In this document: in pieces, positions 11,741-26,854 of the stretch
Layout of the letters: every line of letters starts with the position of its first letter
Numbering within the stretch: the first letter of the stretch is position 1
Assembly: GCA_016284175.1 (NCBI GenBank)
Contig: JAEEOJ010000101.1
Location: 1-33,263, forward strand
Reading direction: 5' to 3'
DNA length: 33,263 nt
Origin: Lachnospiraceae bacterium
Lineage (GTDB): Bacteria; Bacillota; Clostridia; Lachnospirales; Lachnospiraceae
Made by a program: the position numbers and the translations under genes
Notes under the pieces: model-generated
Told to the model about the DNA's origin: nothing
The model's input: the letters and a program-made list of their open reading frames with translations, nothing else
Databases searched by the model: none

Positions 11741-13039
11741 ATGGGAAACATTATGATGAAATTTCTTGAGGAAATGGGCGATGCGCTCAGTACTGACAGA
11801 AAGCTTACTTCCTGTGACAGAGACATGCAGCTTTTCAATGAAATACAGAAAAAGCGTTTAAGAAGCAAAGGTCTTGAGCTTGATTATGATTTTATGGGAA
11901 GAGGCTTTCATGAAGAAGGTCAGGAACATGCCAATGAATGGAAGGACGGCCATTACGTTGCAAAAATCTGGTCGGCTTCAAGCTATTATACCCGCATTCT
12001 TAAAAGAAATAATAAAGTCCTTAAAAAACATAAACAGACCGTCAGTGTCTGGGCAATGGTTCTCGATTATTTAAACGGCGAACGTATCGACGACGATATC
12101 TGTGTATGTCCTAACTGCGGCAATCCCGCGAAGGTAAGCGAACTCACTGAAGGCTGTCCTTACTGCGGTACGATGTTTAAAACAGAAGAACTTTATCCGA
12201 AGGTAATCAATTACAATATTGTCTACGATCCTTCGAGAAAGCCCAAGGAATTCTGGAAACCGACACTTATATTCACAGGTATTTTCACAGCGTGTATATG
12301 GCTTTCGATACCGGTTGTTGCAATCGTTGTAACGGCAATTATGGTTCTTGTCTGCGTACTGCTTGGAACAATAGGAAATGTTCCCGTAGAAAATATGATG
12401 AATATAGTGAAGGGCGGTCTTGGAATCGCAGTTGGCTACGGTGCATTTGTATTCTTCCCCGCACCCTTTATCGGATATGTGCTTGCACTGATTCCCACGC
12501 TTGTAAGACTCGGAAGAGAAGGCGCAAGATCCGCAGCGCTTCTGGCAACTTTCAACTCTCATAAAATGTTCGAAGAGGAAATGAAAAAATACGGCCAGGA
12601 ATACATGGATAATCATTTCATGTCACAGACCGTATCAAAGGTAAAAGCGGCTATCTACAGTGAAAATCCCGACGACCTTCCTTTCTATGAAGGTGCACCA
12701 CTTCCTCAGGAAACAAAGGATATTGTGGATGTATTCTTCAGAGGAGCCGTTGATTATAAAAAGGTGGAAGTAGTAGACAATATCGCTCACGTAGACCTCG
12801 ATGTTTATACTGAAGTCCTTTCTGAGAATAAAGGCAAAGCCAAGAACCAGGACAGAATTTTCCATGTAAGAATGAAGAAGAATGTAAACAACAGAACGGC
12901 GCTTGATTTCTCGGTTTCAAAATTCATGTGTCCGACCTGCGGCAAGAGCTTCGATGCTTACAAGAATAAAAGATGCCCGAGCTGTAACAATGTTTACAAA
13001 GTGGAAGATGCGGACTGGGTAATCGAATCTATAAAATAA
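11741..13039 (+). CDS. Membrane protein with N- and C-terminal zinc ribbons, Tim44-like middle part
   Basis: 432 aa, RBS AAGGAGG. An N-terminal soluble part of about 120 residues is followed by a zinc ribbon (C123-x2-C126, C139-x2-C142), two hydrophobic regions (about 172-210 and 222-255) likely forming two or more membrane helices, a soluble domain (about 270-390; MSQTVSKVKAAIYSENPDDL then alternating strands such as VEVVDNIAHVDLDVYTEVL) resembling Tim44-like domains, and a second zinc ribbon at the end (C397-x2-C400, C412-x2-C415). The eight Cys pair neatly as two structural zinc sites. No enzymatic motif is visible. The stop codon directly abuts the first palindrome at 13040. I recognise the architecture but not a function. 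Confidence 0.75.
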   Translation: MGNIMMKFLEEMGDALSTDRKLTSCDRDMQLFNEIQKKRLRSKGLELDYDFMGRGFHEEGQEHANEWKDGHYVAKIWSASSYYTRILKRNNKVLKKHKQTVSVWAMVLDYLNGERIDDDICVCPNCGNPAKVSELTEGCPYCGTMFKTEELYPKVINYNIVYDPSRKPKEFWKPTLIFTGIFTACIWLSIPVVAIVVTAIMVLVCVLLGTIGNVPVENMMNIVKGGLGIAVGYGAFVFFPAPFIGYVLALIPTLVRLGREGARSAALLATFNSHKMFEEEMKKYGQEYMDNHFMSQTVSKVKAAIYSENPDDLPFYEGAPLPQETKDIVDVFFRGAVDYKKVEVVDNIAHVDLDVYTEVLSENKGKAKNQDRIFHVRMKKNVNNRTALDFSVSKFMCPTCGKSFDAYKNKRCPSCNNVYKVEDADWVIESIK

Positions 13040-13074
13040 TTTGTGCCAGGCACGCTGCGCGAGCCAGGCACAAA
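13040..13074. repeat. T-T mismatch palindrome, copy 1
   Basis: Outer stem TTTGTGCC/GGCACAAA, then an A-A mismatch, GGC/GCC, a second A-A mismatch, CGC/GCG, and a TGC loop. Read on the minus strand the mismatches are T-T, as in the other two copies (13080, 22200). It starts immediately after the stop codon of the zinc-ribbon gene and may double as its terminator, although no clean T-run follows. Confidence 0.85.
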
Positions 13075-13079
13075 TATAA

Positions 13080-13117
13080 AACGGTGTCTGGCTCGCTTTA
13101 GCGTGCCTGACACCGTT
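13080..13117. repeat. T-T mismatch palindrome, copy 2
   Basis: AACGGTGTC pairs with GACACCGTT (9 bp), then T13089-T13108 mismatch, GGC/GCC, T13093-T13104 mismatch, CGC/GCG, loop TTTA. Same plan as copy 1 but inverted relative to it and five bases away. Lies between convergent genes, seven bases from the stop of the ABC exporter gene at 13124. Confidence 0.88.
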
Positions 13118-13123
13118 CTTCAT

Positions 13124-14938
13124 TTAAGAGATATAATTCTTCGCCTGTCGGTCAAACATTTCACGATATCTGCCGTTTAACTGCATCAGTTCTTCGTGGC
13201 TGCCCTGCTCAATGATTGAGCCGTGCTCAAACAGATAAATTCTGTCAGCCATTCTGGTGGTCGAAAGACGATGCGAGATAAAGATAACCGTATCGTTCTG
13301 CGCGTGATCGATGAGGTTCTTGTTAAGCTTGTATTCCGATACCGGATCAAGTGCGGATGAAGGTTCGTCTAAGATTGAAATTGCTCTGTCCTCGTCGTTT
13401 AAGAAGACTCTTGAGATTGCAATCTTCTGACTTTCACCGCCTGAAAGGTTCACGCCTTCATCGGAAAACTCTCTCGTAAGATTAGTGAAAATTCCGTCCG
13501 GAAGTTTGGAGAGTTTCTTTGAAAAGTCCGCTTTCTTAAGTGCGGCGATTACGTCCTTTTCATCCTCTTTGCTGTACTGTCTTAAAAGTACGTTTTCCGC
13601 AAGTGTTGCTGCGTAAATATTGTAGTCCTGGAAAACCGCACTTATCTTTTTACGATATGCCTTCGTATTGTATTCCCTGATGTCGTGACCGTTGTATTCA
13701 ATGCTTCCGTCCGTTACGTCGTAGAGACGCATAAGGAGTTTAACGAATGTAGTTTTGCCTGCGCCGTTTTCGCCTACGATTGCAATCTTTTCTCCGGGTT
13801 TAATCTCTATTGAGATATCTTTAAGCGTATCCTTTTCGGTGTTAGGATAGCGGAAGCTTACGTTTGTTAATTTAAGTGAGCCTGCTTCCTTATCCGGCGT
13901 AAGACCGTCAGCTACTTCGATGATTGGTTCGTAGTCTAAAAGCTTTCTGAACTTCTCCGCATACTGTCCGATGATCTGGAAATCAACGAGACAGTAGTTG
14001 ATTTCGTTTAAGTTGCTTCTTACATAGTTTGCAGCATTGTTGGCCGATGCAACTTCGCCGAGTGCAATTTTACGAAGCACAAGTGCAAGGTAACCTAAGT
14101 ACGCAGGTACAGCGAAGAATGAAAGCACCGTAAATACCGTTATCCAGTTTAAAAGAGATATCCATGTTAAAGAAGGTGTGTACTTTCTGCCCGCAGCGCT
14201 TGCAGCGTCGAGTGCCTCGTCAAACTGAAGCCTTAACGGTTCTTTTACGTTTGTTAATTTGATTTCCTTCGCATATTCCGGCTGATAGAAAACTCTCTTT
14301 GAATATTCAGCCTTTCTTAAGTGCTTTCTGAATTCAAGCCACCATGTGTATTCGATTTCCTCCATCTTAAATCTCGTGATGAGATTGACTATAAATCCGA
14401 CGATGGGGAATACCGCAAGGAACGGATTGATGGTAATGATTAATGCGGCTGCAACCAAGAGTGCGATGGCTCCGCCGAAAATCTTACTGGAGATTACTAC
14501 AGCGCCTTCTATCATATGGTCCGCATTGTTCGCAACGAATACATATGTGTCGTAGTAGTCAGGATTGTCGTAATAAATTAAATCCATCTTACTGTTTTTC
14601 TCGATTAAGTCTCTCTGGATTTTGCCGTCGAGTTTTATGATTTTGGCCTTCGCCCATTCTTCGAGTAACTGGCTTATCCACTCGATGCAGACCACGAGAG
14701 CAAGCGAGATTAAAAGGATGATTACGATATCGCCGAAGTCCGATTTGCCCATCAGGCCGTCGATAATCATCTTTAAAATGAATGTTCCGTTAAGCGCGAG
14801 CGCACTCTTTAAGATAACATTCATCAGGAATATTTTAACGATTAAAGGTTTGTCGTACTTGGCAGCATACTTAATCATAAATGCCGTGTTGCTGATTAAT
14901 CGTTTAATTGAGATTTTGTCTTCTTTGTTTTTAGCCAT
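13124..14938 (-). CDS. ABC exporter half-transporter, second subunit
   Basis: 604-aa fusion of a six-helix membrane domain (about residues 20-320) and a nucleotide-binding domain. Walker A is GENGAGKT with Lys395, the signature is NLSGGESQK, and Walker B is SILDEP with catalytic Glu525, followed by SSALDP and the H-loop His in FISHR, so ATP hydrolysis should be possible. It overlaps the upstream exporter gene by eight bases, and the two are best read as a heterodimeric exporter. Substrate unknown; no precursor peptide, immunity or modification gene is adjacent. Confidence 0.9.
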   Translation of the reverse strand: MAKNKEDKISIKRLISNTAFMIKYAAKYDKPLIVKIFLMNVILKSALALNGTFILKMIIDGLMGKSDFGDIVIILLISLALVVCIEWISQLLEEWAKAKIIKLDGKIQRDLIEKNSKMDLIYYDNPDYYDTYVFVANNADHMIEGAVVISSKIFGGAIALLVAAALIITINPFLAVFPIVGFIVNLITRFKMEEIEYTWWLEFRKHLRKAEYSKRVFYQPEYAKEIKLTNVKEPLRLQFDEALDAASAAGRKYTPSLTWISLLNWITVFTVLSFFAVPAYLGYLALVLRKIALGEVASANNAANYVRSNLNEINYCLVDFQIIGQYAEKFRKLLDYEPIIEVADGLTPDKEAGSLKLTNVSFRYPNTEKDTLKDISIEIKPGEKIAIVGENGAGKTTFVKLLMRLYDVTDGSIEYNGHDIREYNTKAYRKKISAVFQDYNIYAATLAENVLLRQYSKEDEKDVIAALKKADFSKKLSKLPDGIFTNLTREFSDEGVNLSGGESQKIAISRVFLNDEDRAISILDEPSSALDPVSEYKLNKNLIDHAQNDTVIFISHRLSTTRMADRIYLFEHGSIIEQGSHEELMQLNGRYREMFDRQAKNYIS

Positions 14939-19453: not shown

Positions 19454-22117
19454 ATGATGAAAAAAGATAACAAACTGACAATCGGTCTTATCATCGAGAA
19501 TGTCTATACCGAATTTGCAAAAGACGTTGTTCACAGTATTGTCAGTTCTGTTCCCAAAAACAGAGATGTCGAAATAGTGGTTGTAGCCGGCAAATATGTG
19601 GATATCGGACATGAAGACGACATGCAGTCACGCTACAAGAATGTCTACAATTCGATTTACAGACTCGAAGAGCTCTGCAAATTTGACGGTCTTCTGGTTG
19701 CACTCGGAAGTATGGCCAAAGTTAAAAAACAGTTTATCATCAAGAGATTTGTTGAAACTCTGGCAGATGTTCCGAAGGTATTTTTCGTATCCGAACTTGA
19801 AGGTATGGTAAATGTCAATTACGACAATGAGCCGGGTATCAAGGAAGCAGTGGATTATCTTGTAAACATCTGTAATTTTACGAAGTTCGGAATGTTGGGC
19901 GGTCGAGACGATAACCTCGATTCCTGTCGAAGAAAAGCCATTTACGAAAACTGTCTTAAAAAATACAAACTCGAATTAAAGCCTGAGTGTTACGAAGCTA
20001 CGGATATGTCCGTAAATACCATTCCCGAGTCCGAAAGACTTTTAAACAGATGTCCGGATCTTGAAGTAATTTTCTGCGTAAACGACGAGTCAGCAGTAGG
20101 TCTTTACGAAGCCCTGAAAAAGAAAAGACTCGTTCCGGGCAAGGACATTTATGTATTCGGTTTTGACAATACAAGAAAAGCAGGCGATATGATTCCGTCT
20201 CTTGCAACCATCGGTGCAGAGAGTGTAACACTCGGACAGAAATCACTCGAACTTCTTTTAAAAATGATTGACGGAGAGCAGGCGGAATCCGTAATGATTC
20301 CTACCAAGCTTTACGGCAGAGATTCCTGTGATTATGAATCAAACGATTATTCATCCTTAGAGATTTTAAATATGGATGAAGAGTTTATTTACAGAATATT
20401 CGACGACTGCTTTTACAGATACAGATATAACCGCATCGATGAAGATTCGGTTGATTTAAGACGACTCTTTTATGAGTTTATCAGCAGAATCATAAAAGCA
20501 TTGAAAAACAGATATATGAGCGAGGAAGAGTACGAAGAGACCAGGGAACTTATCGAAACTTTCTTTGACAATAATGCGACCGACTATACCGATTCAACCA
20601 AGATGTTAAAGAGTATGATTAAATTCCAGAATTCACTCAACGCTCTTCAGAGAAATCCTTCCACGGCCGTAACGATAAACCGTCTGTTCATTCACATGAG
20701 AAACAGCGCTATTCAGGCGCTCTCAAGAAGAATGCGCACCGAGACTTCGAGCTTTGCATCAAACAGAATTATCTTTGAAAACTTCTTGACCGAGTGCATG
20801 GATATAAGCACCTCGAGCACCGAACTGATTAATGCAATCGTAGGAAGATTTGACAAACTCGGACTCGAAGATGCGTCACTTTTTATGTTTGAATCTCCCG
20901 CTATTTTTGAAAAGGATAACGCACATGTCTATCCGGACGAGGTCAGCCTTCGCTGTTACACAAAAGCGGGCGAGCTCTTTGTAATTCCTCCCGAGAGACA
21001 GAAGAGTCCCATAGCAGATATTTTCAGGAGAGAAGAACTTACCTCGAAGAAAAGAGGCTTCATAGCTTTTCCGATTATTTTCAAGGATTATATTTACGGT
21101 ATTTTGGTTTGCGTACTGTCTGGAGATATCGTTGATAAGGGCGAGTATGTAGCGGGACAGCTTGGCAGAACGATTTACATTTCGCATACGCAGGAATCGG
21201 ATAATACCGAAAAGGAAAAGATTACTTACACTCGTATTGCGGAAACGCTTGCAACGAAGTATGCCGTTATTTATCATGTTAACTCAGGCAGCGGAGAGTA
21301 TACCGAATACAGAACAAACAAAAAGTCCGGCAAATTTGAGATTAAGGAAAACGGCGGAGATTTCTTTGATGATATTTCGAAAGAATCGCGTTACGAATTA
21401 TCAGCCGGGGACAGAAAGAAAGTACTTGATATCTTAAATAAAGAGAGTCTGAAAAAAGATCTTGAAAGCAGGAAAAAAATCGGAGTTGATTTTAAGATAA
21501 AAGAAAAAGAAGTTGAAAAAAATATTCGACTGACGGTGCTCTGGTCAAGCGATAAGGTTCACTTTGTAATCGGATTCGAAAACATTGACGAACAGGTTAA
21601 AAAGGAAGAAGCGCAGCTTCGCGAACTTACCACTCAGAGAGAGTTTGCAAGAAAAGACGAGCTTACCGGCGTCAAGAACAAAAACGCATATCAGGAATTT
21701 GAGGAAGCCATGCAGCGTAAGATATCTGCAGGTACGGCAATTTCTCCGTTTGCGGTTATTGTCTGTGATATAAACAATCTTAAAATCATTAACGATACCG
21801 CGGGACATAAGGTCGGCGACGAGTACATAATCGAAGCATCCAAACTGATCTGCACAACTTTTACGCACAGTCCCGTTTACCGTATCGGCGGCGATGAATT
21901 CGTAGTTATTTTAAATGCGGGCGACTACATCAACAGAGAAAAACTTCTTAAACAGATCCGTTCCGAAGTGATAAAAAACATCGGCAAAAAAGAAGGCGTT
22001 GTAATAGCTACCGGAATAGCGGATTACGACTCGGTTAACGACAAAAAAATATCTGATGTTTTTGAGAGAGCGGATGCGAAAATGTATGAGAACAAAAAGT
22101 TCTTAAAATACATTTAA
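19454..22117 (+). CDS. LacI-type ligand-binding domain fused to GGDEF diguanylate cyclase
   Basis: 887-aa protein with no signal peptide or membrane helix, so the ligand-binding module works in the cytoplasm. Residues about 8-290 resemble the sugar-binding half of LacI/PurR regulators (LTIGLIIENVYTEFAKDVV, FCVNDESAVGLYEAL, DIYVFGFDNTRKAGDMIPSLATI), without a DNA-binding head. A long helical middle follows, then a GAF-like region (about 455-575) and a further sensor-like segment. The C-terminal GGDEF domain has CDINNLKIINDTAGHKVGDEY and an intact GGDEF motif at 812-816, so c-di-GMP synthesis is expected; no RxxD inhibitory site is evident before it. Two ATG codons at 19454 and 19457 are both possible starts. 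Likely co-transcribed with the EAL gene upstream, possibly linking sugar availability to c-di-GMP. Confidence 0.87.
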   Translation: MMKKDNKLTIGLIIENVYTEFAKDVVHSIVSSVPKNRDVEIVVVAGKYVDIGHEDDMQSRYKNVYNSIYRLEELCKFDGLLVALGSMAKVKKQFIIKRFVETLADVPKVFFVSELEGMVNVNYDNEPGIKEAVDYLVNICNFTKFGMLGGRDDNLDSCRRKAIYENCLKKYKLELKPECYEATDMSVNTIPESERLLNRCPDLEVIFCVNDESAVGLYEALKKKRLVPGKDIYVFGFDNTRKAGDMIPSLATIGAESVTLGQKSLELLLKMIDGEQAESVMIPTKLYGRDSCDYESNDYSSLEILNMDEEFIYRIFDDCFYRYRYNRIDEDSVDLRRLFYEFISRIIKALKNRYMSEEEYEETRELIETFFDNNATDYTDSTKMLKSMIKFQNSLNALQRNPSTAVTINRLFIHMRNSAIQALSRRMRTETSSFASNRIIFENFLTECMDISTSSTELINAIVGRFDKLGLEDASLFMFESPAIFEKDNAHVYPDEVSLRCYTKAGELFVIPPERQKSPIADIFRREELTSKKRGFIAFPIIFKDYIYGILVCVLSGDIVDKGEYVAGQLGRTIYISHTQESDNTEKEKITYTRIAETLATKYAVIYHVNSGSGEYTEYRTNKKSGKFEIKENGGDFFDDISKESRYELSAGDRKKVLDILNKESLKKDLESRKKIGVDFKIKEKEVEKNIRLTVLWSSDKVHFVIGFENIDEQVKKEEAQLRELTTQREFARKDELTGVKNKNAYQEFEEAMQRKISAGTAISPFAVIVCDINNLKIINDTAGHKVGDEYIIEASKLICTTFTHSPVYRIGGDEFVVILNAGDYINREKLLKQIRSEVIKNIGKKEGVVIATGIADYDSVNDKKISDVFERADAKMYENKKFLKYI

Positions 22118-22132
22118 ATTGCGCTAAATTAA

Positions 22133-22193
22133 TTGTTTAAAACCTAATAATATGGTACTTTATAAGAGAAGGACAAAAGATGCCCTTCTCTTA
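22133..22193 (+). promoter_or_regulatory. Promoter and 5' hairpin of lipoprotein A
   Basis: TTGTTT (22133-22138), a 17-base spacer and TACTTT (22156-22161) form a plausible promoter. A perfect 10-bp stem TAAGAGAAGG/CCTTCTCTTA (22163-22172 and 22184-22193, 11-base loop) starts where transcription should begin. The same arrangement, with near-identical sequence, precedes the DUF4214 gene at 23631. Confidence 0.65.
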
Positions 22194-22199
22194 TTTGTT

Positions 22200-22230
22200 G
22201 GTGTCTGGCTCCCGAAGGGTGCCTGACTCC
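22200..22230. repeat. T-T mismatch palindrome, copy 3
   Basis: GGTGTC/GACTCC outer arms (one extra T-T mismatch at 22202/22228), T22206-T22224 mismatch, GGC/GCC, T22210-T22220 mismatch, CCC/GGG, loop GAA. Same plan as the pair at 13040-13117. It lies in the untranslated leader of lipoprotein A, and the homologous leader of the DUF4214 gene lacks it, which suggests insertion. Confidence 0.82.
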
Positions 22231-22263
22231 GATTGGGTGTGGAGATACAGAGAGGTAGAGAAA

Positions 22264-23475
22264 ATGAAAAAGACTGAAAATACGAGGCAGAATTGTAATT
22301 TAAAAAGGGGTATTTCTTTGCTTTTATCTTTTATGATGTCATTTGTATTTTTAATGGCAAACGGCTGTGAAAAAGCAAAGACAATTGACGATTATCCTGA
22401 TATTCAAGTGCCGGTAGAGGAAATCACAGATGTCGAAGTGACTCCGGTAGTCGACGAGGACGAAGAAGTTGTTGTGGCAAAGGATACTATTAATCGTGGG
22501 TACGATTCAATATACGATACAGGTACTTTTGTATTTAATCCCGAAGCCGTCAATCCTGCAATTAAGGAAGAAATGAAAAACAAAGAGACTTCTTACAAAG
22601 TTGGCATAGATATTCTCAATGCAATTCATGAACACAAAACCGAATTTGAACCTACAGGCGATGACGAAATTGATGAATTGGATTTTAACCGTGGTTTCAA
22701 ACTCGCCAGAACTACAAGTCCGATGGCAACATGTGTTGATATAACGATGGTGGATACCAATAAATACAAAATAAATTATTTTCCTGCAGTTTCCGCTGAT
22801 GGCAGTATAGAGCTTGATGAAGATACAGATATGTCGGAAGTGGAAAACAGATTAAACGCATTCGAAGAATATGTTACAGAAATGATTAACAACAATATAA
22901 CCGCCGATGACGATTATATGCAACGCGCAAAGAAGATATACAAAGCTCTTATTGAAGACATCGAACTGGTTCATGATACAGAAATATTGGGAAAAGCAAA
23001 CTTATCCAATCCGATGTACGATATCAGAGACTCATACGATACGGATATAATTGATGTGCCGGAAACCAAAAAACTGAATCACTATCAATTCTTATTCCTA
23101 TATGATTATTTTTTGAGCGAACTTAATGTTGAGCACTATGTTGTACTTGGCCGTACCTTAGAAAAAGAATACGCCTACGACTGGCTTGATGAAGACATGG
23201 AATCGGCAGGCGGCATTTGGGCCTGGATTATAGTCAATGATGAAGACAATAATTCTTACAATTGCGATATTCTGATGGATGAATTGTTATTGGATGAGCA
23301 GAGAAAAACAAAAGAAGATTATGAGTCTGATATGGCATTCTTTGGAATGAGCGACAAAACAAGAAGTGAATCTTTTAATTATGTCGGAGGTTATCTTGCC
23401 GTTTCAATGACTAATAATACAGCCGGAAATGGTAGCTCCGGTGTTCCTAAATGTGAAAAAGATTATAATGAATAA
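22264..23475 (+). CDS. Predicted lipoprotein A, degenerate transglutaminase-like fold
   Basis: 403 aa. The ATG at 22264 is chosen over an in-frame ATG at 22180 because it follows GAGAGGTAG, matches the paralogue at 25640 and begins directly with a signal peptide; the upstream extension would only translate the hairpin and the palindrome. The signal ends in MANGC (Cys35, a loose lipobox), followed by an acidic stretch. The C-terminal half resembles bacterial transglutaminase-like domains: an Y-M-x-R-A-K-K-I-Y-K helix, YQFLFLYDYFLSELNVEHYVV, WAWIIV, NCDILMD and FFGMSD. The catalytic Cys position is His273 and the His of the usual HAW is Trp319; only the Asp (D335) remains, so it is probably inactive and may be a binding protein. 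Followed by an intrinsic terminator. Function unknown. Confidence 0.75.
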   Translation: MKKTENTRQNCNLKRGISLLLSFMMSFVFLMANGCEKAKTIDDYPDIQVPVEEITDVEVTPVVDEDEEVVVAKDTINRGYDSIYDTGTFVFNPEAVNPAIKEEMKNKETSYKVGIDILNAIHEHKTEFEPTGDDEIDELDFNRGFKLARTTSPMATCVDITMVDTNKYKINYFPAVSADGSIELDEDTDMSEVENRLNAFEEYVTEMINNNITADDDYMQRAKKIYKALIEDIELVHDTEILGKANLSNPMYDIRDSYDTDIIDVPETKKLNHYQFLFLYDYFLSELNVEHYVVLGRTLEKEYAYDWLDEDMESAGGIWAWIIVNDEDNNSYNCDILMDELLLDEQRKTKEDYESDMAFFGMSDKTRSESFNYVGGYLAVSMTNNTAGNGSSGVPKCEKDYNE

Positions 23476-23630: not shown

Positions 23631-23692
23631 TTGTTTACACTGTAATAATATGTTATCTTTTAAGAGAAGGACAAAAGATGGTCCTTCTCTTA
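23631..23692 (+). promoter_or_regulatory. Promoter and 5' hairpin of the DUF4214 gene
   Basis: TTGTTT (23631-23636), 17 bases, TATCTT (23654-23659), then a perfect 12-bp stem TAAGAGAAGGAC/GTCCTTCTCTTA (23661-23672 and 23681-23692) with an 8-base loop, followed by TTTCATTTT. Duplicate of the leader at 22133. The predicted mRNA 5' end falls within the first bases of the stem. It probably serves both the DUF4214 gene and lipoprotein B. Confidence 0.65.
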
Positions 23693-25639: not shown

Positions 25640-26854
25640 ATGAAAACAATTAAGACGAGACTGAAAACTAACATAAAAAAAAGATTTTCTTTGCTTTTAT
25701 CGTTTGTTATGACATTTGCAATTTTAATGGCTAACGGCTGTGTTAAAAAACCGGCAGTGATTGAAGATTATCCCGAGGTTCAGGTTATCGTGGAGGATGA
25801 AACAGAGGATGTCGATGTACCTGAGGTAATCGAAGATGAAGAAATTGTAGTGGATAAAGATACCGTTAATCGCGGATACGACTCGATTTACGAGACAGGT
25901 TCTTTTGTATTTAATCCCGAAGCAATCAGCATACAGTATACCGAGGAGATGAAAAACAAAGAGGCTTCCTATAAGGCAGCCAAAATTATTTTAAAAGCCC
26001 TGGATGAATGTAAAGAGCAGATTGAACTTGAGGAAGAAGACGGAATCGATGATATGGATTTTAACCGCGGTTTAAAACTTGCAAGAATAAACTCTCCGAT
26101 GGCTTCCTGCGTTGATATAACCATGGTCGAGCCCAATGTATATAAAATCAGTTATTTCCCGACACTTTCCGAAGATCACAGAGAGCTTTATGAGAGTGAT
26201 ACGGATATCGCGGAAGTTGAGAGAAAATACACTGCATTCAAAGAATATGTTACCGATGCAATCAACAATAATATAACTGCCGATGACGATTATATGGAGC
26301 GTGCGGCCAAGATTTACAAATTTATGATTGAAAACATTGAACTTGAGCAGGATAATGAATTTCTTGAAACGGCAGCCCTGACAAATCCCATGACCTTAAT
26401 ACTGGCATCATATGATACCGATATCATTGATGTACCGGAAACTCAAAAACTGGATTACGGGCATTTTTTACTTCTTTATGATTACTTTTTAACACAGCTT
26501 AATGTTGAGCATGTGATTGATGTGGGCGGCGGCCGTGAGTATGATGTACCGACCGATTCAATAAAAGAAGCTATGGATACTATAAATGGCAACTGGCTTT
26601 GGATTGTTGTAACGGATGAAGAACAATACAGTTACCACTGCGATATTCTGATGGATAAAATGCTCCTTGATGAGCAGAGAAAATCAAAATCGGATTATGA
26701 ATCCGATATGGTGTTCTTCGGAATGAGTGACGATACCAGAAACAAATCCATTAAGATGCTCGGATCTTATATCGCTCTTACAATGAATTCGAATTTGAAC
26801 AATAACGGCGGCAGTACCATAAAATGTGAAAAAGATTATAAATATAATAAATAG
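25640..26854 (+). CDS. Predicted lipoprotein B, degenerate transglutaminase-like fold
   Basis: 404 aa, paralogue of the protein at 22264 over its full length: same MANGC lipobox (Cys34), acidic linker with DYPEVQV, NRGYDSIYETGSFVFNPEA, SPMASCVDITMVEPNVYKISYFP, NNNITADDDYMERAAKIYKFMIE and YDTDIIDVPETQKLD blocks. In the transglutaminase-like part the position of the catalytic Cys is Tyr, the HAW motif is WLW, and HCDILMDKMLL keeps the Asp, so it too appears catalytically dead. RBS GGGGAGG. No promoter lies in the 37-base gap from the DUF4214 gene, so they form an operon ended by the terminator at 26874. Both copies keep the same substitutions, which argues for a conserved non-enzymatic role. 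Confidence 0.75.
   Translation: MKTIKTRLKTNIKKRFSLLLSFVMTFAILMANGCVKKPAVIEDYPEVQVIVEDETEDVDVPEVIEDEEIVVDKDTVNRGYDSIYETGSFVFNPEAISIQYTEEMKNKEASYKAAKIILKALDECKEQIELEEEDGIDDMDFNRGLKLARINSPMASCVDITMVEPNVYKISYFPTLSEDHRELYESDTDIAEVERKYTAFKEYVTDAINNNITADDDYMERAAKIYKFMIENIELEQDNEFLETAALTNPMTLILASYDTDIIDVPETQKLDYGHFLLLYDYFLTQLNVEHVIDVGGGREYDVPTDSIKEAMDTINGNWLWIVVTDEEQYSYHCDILMDKMLLDEQRKSKSDYESDMVFFGMSDDTRNKSIKMLGSYIALTMNSNLNNNGGSTIKCEKDYKYNK

Follow-up and report, generated by a model that had tools for sequence, protein, structure and literature searches.

Background

In E. coli, TnpAREP acts on folded single strands and processes only one of the two strands; cleavage of the single-stranded hairpin is reported to depend on mismatches, restoring a regular REP stem severely affects activity, and the mismatch positions were only moderately selected in SELEX (text passages of PMC8266576). 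Tagged REPs are predominantly proteobacterial and carry a GTAG or CGTC foot, and those of the CGTC type are apparently without a dedicated transposase, lie mostly downstream of coding regions and form predominantly HH dimers (text passages of PMC3733652). REP doublets that form hairpins are called REPINs (a name used in passages of PMC6006769; see also PMC3116915). TnpAY1 genes of subclass 2.6, which are mostly found in Bacteroidetes, and of class 3, which have a CnGA foot, are adjoined by atypical secondary structures with copies elsewhere in the genome (text passages of PMC6006769). In REP-related 18-mers from Haemophilus parasuis and Cardiobacterium hominis, double T-T pairs do not deform the duplex (text passages of PMC7709200).

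The window analyzed here, a stretch of 33,263 nucleotides from a Lachnospiraceae bacterium (contig JAEEOJ010000101.1), contains three mismatched hairpins that belong to a dispersed family of one rumen Lachnospiraceae genus. This family shares with the group 2 RAYT/TnpAREP REPs of the E. coli type its many imperfect hairpins with conserved stem mismatches, its strand asymmetry and its pairs, but has no GTAG tag, carries single mismatches at four-base intervals where those REPs have one bulge, and is most abundant in genomes in which no RAYT was found (compared with the text passages of PMC8266576). It resembles the CGTC-tagged REPs, as presented in the passages of PMC3733652, in its apparent lack of a dedicated transposase, its placement mostly after genes and its one predominant dimer type, and differs from them in having no CGTC tag and a stem broken by mismatches. 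Like REPINs it forms inverted hairpin pairs with a short spacer and one polarity, although singlets outnumber doublets (passages of PMC6006769). The structures beside TnpAY1 genes of subclass 2.6 and class 3 are similar in being non-canonical and adjacent to Y1 genes, a likeness of description in passages of PMC6006769 rather than of compared sequences, and the 18-mers have two adjacent central T-T pairs in a duplex, unlike the spaced hairpin mismatches of the family (passages of PMC7709200). The family thus shows the descriptive features of REPs and REPINs, namely a short hairpin in many, mostly intergenic copies and inverted doublets (BIME/REPIN), with neither the tag nor a recognizable cognate RAYT. 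The text passages of PMC7709200, PMC3733652, PMC8266576 and PMC6006769, figures and supplements aside, do not describe it; the top-ranked matches in the REP/RAYT literature contained no description of this family, and literature containing the core 11-mers (top-ranked matches) or 12- and 13-mers included no paper on bacterial repeats.

A tagless Lachnospiraceae family with three regular mismatch sites would allow the testing of a strand mark for an HUH enzyme. With close relatives, the isolate G41 among them, whose sites differ in being empty, filled, replaced or inverted, it would also allow tests of how such hairpins spread, or how they persist after the loss of the enzyme.

Three hairpins in the window

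The family unit consists of two direct copies of the near-palindrome GTGYCTGRCWC folded into one stem. In the folded stem, positions 2, 6 and 10 of the first arm oppose positions 10, 6 and 2 of the second, T facing T with the outer site often T-A. The four-base spacing of the three mismatch sites (2.10', 6.6' and 10.2') follows from the arms being direct repeats of a sequence that is itself nearly palindromic. Element 1 (13039..13075, minus strand, core 13043-13071) has arms GTGCCTGGCTC and GTGCCTGGCAC with the loop gcgcagc and an outer stem of ATTT/AAAT, and element 2 (13080..13117, plus strand, core 13084-13113) reads GTGTCTGGCTC gctttagc GTGCCTGACAC, with a compensated T4-A8' pair. Both have T.T at 6.6' and 10.2' and a T-A pair at the outermost site, 2.10', where element 3 (22197..22233, plus strand, core 22201-22229; GTGTCTGGCTC ccgaagg GTGCCTGACTC) has its third T.T mismatch. 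Elements 1 and 2 form an inverted doublet (13039..13117) with 12 nt separating the cores and T strands directed outward, the commonest paired arrangement in the family.

A covariance model of 83 family members, these three included, matched only elements 1-3 in the window at E ≤ 10, with scores of 47.9-51.5 bits on the T strand and weaker scores on the opposite strand. This bears out the sequence-only reading, which had placed three hairpins here with element 1 on the minus strand. A scan of the window with Rfam 15 gave no match at the gathering score.

Element 1 follows a plus-strand gene with a weak double zinc ribbon match (11741..13039), which stops where the outer stem of the element starts, and a convergent ABC transporter gene on the minus strand (13124..14938) ends 6 bases past element 2. 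Element 3 lies between two plus-strand genes, one with a GGDEF domain (19454..22117) and one at 22264..23475, for which the list of open reading frames has the start 22180 and for which 22264 is likelier by eye. Two plain hairpins with a common arm, TAAGAGAAGGAC, are also present in the window (22162-22194 and 23661-23692); the first directly precedes element 3 and resembles an intrinsic terminator. The genes at 22264-23475 and 25640-26854 are adjacent and their products are alike by eye, the first having no Pfam match.

Distribution of the family

Copy number was compared between the genome under study (G000) and other genomes, among them the isolate Lachnospiraceae bacterium G41 (G005) and the MAGs RGIG8121 (G003), RUG11047 (G007) and RGIG7104 (G021). 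The genome under study has 43 half-sites GTGYCTGRCWC against 5 for the reversed control and 16 exact two-arm patterns against none, and 31 of the 43 exact half-sites sit in exact two-arm units. Further copies, which the sequence-only reading had proposed to count in the genome and its relatives, were found: the exact pattern occurs in 7 of 99 genomes, all of one genus of rumen Lachnospiraceae, with counts of 40 in G005, 23 in G003, 18 in G007, 7 in G021, 6 in G014 and 3 in G009 in addition to the 16 above, while the reversed two-arm control gave zero in all 99. The 83-element model matched 14 of 31 genus genomes (G005 140, G007 88, G003 82, G000 35, G014 25, G021 23, G022 15 and at most 6 in each of the other seven), counts that are rough because both strands may match one unit and at most 150 candidates were scored per genome. 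Y1 loci (L069-L098) were excluded from the element scans.

Uptake sequences can double as paired terminators, and an 11-mer that is short, abundant, near-palindromic and near gene ends could in principle be a DNA uptake sequence or a protein operator. We consider this very improbable, since the pairing partners co-vary between the arms (below), most exact half-sites belong to two-arm units, and 17 of the 31 genus genomes have no model match.

Exact matches in actinobacteria, Collinsella, Brevibacterium and Acetatifactor were set aside as resembling tandem repeats by eye. In the low-GC MAG AUK180 (G099; L256, L260 and others), seven hairpins with the exact two-arm pattern were found, their flanks being shared in part; one of them is ~1.8 kb from a gene that looks IS110-like by eye.

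Mismatch sites and covariation

Sets of elements found by pattern favor T at the mismatch sites, and two less biased sets were therefore considered: 30 elements found off pattern, a few of which are chained arms of neighboring elements, and 77 elements of G005, the best model matches in 720 kb (101 matches minus 24 below 34 bits, of which 21 were opposite-strand duplicates and 3 weak separate matches). In the G005 set, each stem pair is of the Watson-Crick type in 74-77 of the 77 elements, and T.T is found at 2.10' in 57, at 6.6' in 44 and at 10.2' in 70. The middle site is otherwise C.T or T.C in 20, C.C in 4, A-T or T-A in 7 and G-C in 2. The off-pattern elements show a similar picture, with T.T at 10.2' in 27 and, at 6.6', 20 pyrimidine-pyrimidine oppositions (9 T.C, 5 C.T, 4 C.C, 2 T.T), 9 A-T/T-A pairs (8 A-T, 1 T-A) and 1 G.T. 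The middle site is therefore pyrimidine-pyrimidine rather than strictly T.T, and the mismatch positions are kept yet not immutable. The earlier proposal of two symmetric T-T mismatches at fixed places stands as to the keeping of positions and needs amendment as to number and identity, there being three sites, of which the middle one varies and is sometimes paired.

After collapsing of orthologs, 91 groups were obtained, with an arm spacing of 7 nt in 59 and 5-9 nt in the others. The covariation test used 83 elements (the 91 groups minus one with more than two mismatches and minus seven others, namely one that lay in a coding ORF, three belonging to a single array in L045, and three from L115 and L127 that overlapped or were chained), with the structure assigned by hand. 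In this set, 96.0% of cells were paired compared to 83.0% after shuffling, compensated cells numbered 138 against 45.0 (sd 5.9), and the covariation score was 0.366 against 0.133; none of 500 shuffles reached the observed pairing, compensated cells or score. Neither the pairs changed on both sides (6) nor the further pair types (20) exceeded the shuffled sets (369 and 92 of 500, respectively). Sliding the partner by 1-3 columns left at most 48% of cells paired, and G.U pairs made up 14 of 996 cells. Compensation runs between the arms (position 4 with 8' and 8 with 4') and in the inner pair and the two outer pairs. The two outer pairs are otherwise free in sequence and are Watson-Crick in 83 and 64 of the 91 groups, compared to 53.9 and 25.9 expected, while the third to tenth flanking positions give 24-39 against 26-32 expected.

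These results refute chance hairpins and the random decay of perfect palindromes, an origin to which we give practically no weight. One copy in G003 comes closer to a perfect palindrome than the corresponding copy in G005, as decay would have it, but the reversed control is zero in 99 genomes, compensated cells far exceed the shuffles, and the mismatch sites are fixed in 77 elements; the sequence-only reading had likewise held decay to be unlikely.

The computed fold of the T strand was more stable than that of its complement in 79 of 86 elements with DNA parameters and in 84 of 86 with RNA parameters (91 groups minus five of the elements dropped above). Since the complement has A.A or other purine mismatches and this less stable fold, the mismatches would mark the T strand.

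Placement, orientation and doublets

Seventy-four of the 91 groups lie outside ORFs with both neighbors seen, in tandem (46), convergent (26) or divergent (2) contexts; 16 fall within an ORF of the crude caller used and one is at an edge. Copies mostly lie near gene ends: of 45 elements in tandem contexts, 30 are no further than 30 bases from the stop codon of the upstream gene. The sense strand of these contexts coincides with the T strand in 34 of 45 elements (p = 8e-4), and in 32 of 45 in G005. As to the T run that follows the GC-rich hairpin of an intrinsic terminator, at least five T were present among the 9 nt after the hairpin in 25 of 86 elements for the T strand and in 32 of 86 for the opposite strand, compared to 11 and 8 of 86 in controls thirty nt away.

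This placement is compatible with a role in RNA, in which U.U-mismatch hairpins would end or protect transcripts or separate cistrons and dispersal would be secondary. The position after stop codons, the sense-strand bias and the T runs all favor such a role, as does the plain stem with a T-rich flank that relatives carry at the window site, and stems change less than mismatch sites and flanks between orthologs (below), a comparison in which detection favors intact stems. A copying process is needed, however, for nearly identical units of 30 bases to recur at dozens of sites and for doublets to have a single polarity, and the scarcity of G.U pairs, the absence of Rfam matches in the window and the moderate size of the T runs, which are present on both sides, also weigh against it. 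We regard RNA elements as an unlikely primary explanation, though as the main rival to a REP-type family.

Where the skew is clear, the T strand coincides with the leading-skew strand in 49 of 72 cases. The orientation bias may stem from replication or from transcription: all 41 tandem cases with clear skew are on genes of the leading strand, and the 8 convergent singlets are evenly divided (4:4).

Adjacent elements are arranged as outward inverted pairs in 20 cases, direct pairs in 6 and inward pairs in none (n = 26, with three ortholog pairs counted twice, doublets of identical sequence counted once, and the G003 direct form of a doublet with an inverted first unit omitted); in G005 the corresponding numbers are 13, 2 and 0 (n = 15). 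No conserved tetranucleotide tag was found within 20 nt on either side of the 91 groups, neither a GTAG nor a CGTC foot is present, and conservation of the flanks does not reach beyond two bases per side, which pair across the stem.

Variation between sister genomes

Element 1 is absent from the orthologous site in G014, where the neighboring sequence is kept, the site of element 2 in G014 and G007 contains a plain stem with ACGG..CCGT ends, and the site of element 3 is occupied in G005, G007 and G021. An automatic comparison of the flanks of 139 elements gave 18 candidate pairs of sites with and without an element, several of which reflect different alignments of a single site or a change from doublet to singlet, or are doubtful. 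By eye, clean empty sites were present in G003 for one element of G005 and G007, and in G007 for two elements of G005. One of these sites holds different element variants in G005 and G003 and none in G007, the flanks in G005 and G003 being alike except for a few bases beside the element. At another site, a 30-base core is inverted in place between the close species G005 and G003 (L119 2010 and L136 2065), within a 160-base stretch that differs at only one further base. No target duplication was seen by eye at the sites with and without elements, and such pairs do not separate gain from loss.

Across 37 orthologous pairs, which include the doubtful pair L110/L050 and the replaced site L113/L068, changes were found in 12 of 222 mismatch-site positions, 78 of 1332 flank positions, 11 of 592 stem positions and 15 of 255 loop positions, rates for which detection favors intact stems and pairs within a group are not independent. 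Mismatch sites change about as fast as flanks, indicating that the mismatches are not visibly maintained after insertion.

Turnover without an enzyme, by template switching, cruciform exchange or gene conversion, could keep hairpins alike and flip units. The in-place inversion, the replacement of variants between G005 and G003 and the doublet-to-singlet differences at half-sites agree with it, as does the lack of a candidate Y1 enzyme in G003 and G007 and of a RAYT in G005. Conversion alone nevertheless leaves unexplained both the sites that are empty in a sister genome (G007 compared to G005 and G003) and the abundance of copies in only a few members of the genus, and we judge this explanation distinctly improbable.

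Y1 and RAYT genes in the genus

The sequence-only reading had suggested that the hairpins are substrates of a RAYT-like enzyme. The REP-like hairpins, the doublets and the presence or absence of elements at orthologous sites accord with this suggestion, but the NCBIfam RAYT model NF047646 had no match in G003, G005 or G007, the three copy-richest genomes, of which G005 is given as 99% complete; together with the lack of a conserved tag in the 91 groups, this counts against the suggestion. The model matched 12 of the 31 genus genomes and scored above its cut-off in three (G009, G010 and G025). PF01797 was matched in 57 of 99 genomes and in neither G003 nor G007, and its G005 matches, among those listed, are IS200-type fragments at contig ends.

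A Y1 gene (PF01797) framed by the same hairpin was not found in the genome under study, contrary to what had been proposed. Its two Y1 genes, both on C103, score 66.6 and 48.0 bits against the NF047646 cut-off of 80 and adjoin GGGGACGGTTC repeats instead, and a RAYT of this genome was accordingly rejected as the mover of the two-arm hairpin. These genes and repeats (L007 1734-2677 and 6704-6746) resemble TIRYT genes, whose inverted repeats GGGG[AT][CG]A[CG] differ from GGGGACGGTTC by one letter (passages of PMC6006769). The same repeats are near Y1 genes in G014, G016 and G021, with a variant form in G023, and no two-arm hairpin was seen near the Y1 loci of the genome under study, G009, G014 or G021.

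The IS200 copies of G005 were likewise rejected as movers, an element array being beside only one of the seven places listed (from eight matches) and another place (C3) being ~2 kb from one. On contig C4 (L099), an element array is ~190 bases from a Y1 fragment. In 12 Y1 stretches of G005, G009, G014 and G021 (L267-L278), the hairpin did not form an IS200/IS605 end, and half-sites with at most one mismatch were present only in L272, ~2 kb from the Y1 fragment.

No RAYT gene flanked by an identical hairpin, the arrangement of a REPtron, was found among the genus loci examined. In G025, a RAYT scoring 80.1 bits, just above the NCBIfam cut-off, has two hairpins with GGGGTCAGGCACC on each side, and the GTAATGGGGTCAGGCACCATTAC-type hairpins framing it (C47, L342 1477-1521 and 2688-2727) are related, not identical, to the family half-site. 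This RAYT and its hairpins are a possible working relative of the family.

A probable orphan family with a proposed strand mark

We consider it probable, at roughly 60%, that the hairpins are an orphan, tagless REP/REPIN-type family of small non-autonomous units, in which the mismatches mark the strand once processed by an HUH-Y1 enzyme. The unit would have spread as folded single-stranded DNA through an enzyme of the RAYT/TnpAREP kind that recognized the T strand of the hairpin, with the mismatches as the mark of that strand. Given that E. coli TnpAREP is strand-specific and mismatch-dependent (passages of PMC8266576), recognition of a mismatch-marked strand is the most economical reading. 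The enzyme would now be missing from, or unrecognizable in, the copy-rich genomes, and the family may have persisted as an orphan because hairpins that follow a stop codon do no harm or serve a purpose, such as terminating transcription or forming the 3' end of an mRNA. The CGTC REPs, in the account of PMC3733652 passages, would be a precedent by analogy for a family without a dedicated transposase. The family may owe its maintenance to an unknown enzyme, to a RAYT that has been lost or to exchange that needs no enzyme.

A more speculative version, which we hold to be unlikely, is that the pyrimidine mismatches at positions 2, 6 and 10 would be a strand code replacing the GTAG foot, the tagless single-stranded DNA hairpins would be read by an enzyme that is not a recognizable RAYT, and units could flip in place.

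The core 11-mer outside the genus

In each of four genomes outside the genus, picked for having a two-arm match, the core GTGCCWGGCWC far exceeded its control (53 against 7, 38-43 against 1, 37 against 1-2 and 13-18 against 0). Genomes outside the genus considered for Y1 loci included the MAG AUK180 named above, an Omnitrophota genome (G100), a Bdellovibrionaceae genome (G101) and a deltaproteobacterial MAG (G102). Y1 genes have the 11-base core on either side at 2 of the 3 loci of G101 and at 1 of the 13 of G099. In G101, 5 core sites lie in the 3 Y1 loci compared to 0.14 expected (P = 3.4e-7, in a test chosen post hoc), and one of the two flanked Y1 genes is below the Pfam cut-off. The core was absent beside Y1 at the single G100 locus and at both G104 loci, and G103 had no Y1 match. 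Flanking of Y1 genes by the hairpin thus holds in part outside the genus: the Y1-flanking hairpins of G101 and G099 have a single core rather than the two-arm unit, G102 has two-arm hairpins next to 2 of its 7 Y1 loci, on the only side seen, and within the genus only the related hairpin of G025 was found. At another Y1 locus of G102 (C92, L281 1369 and 2131), GGGTCCGACAC, one letter off the core, lies on both sides in opposite orientation.
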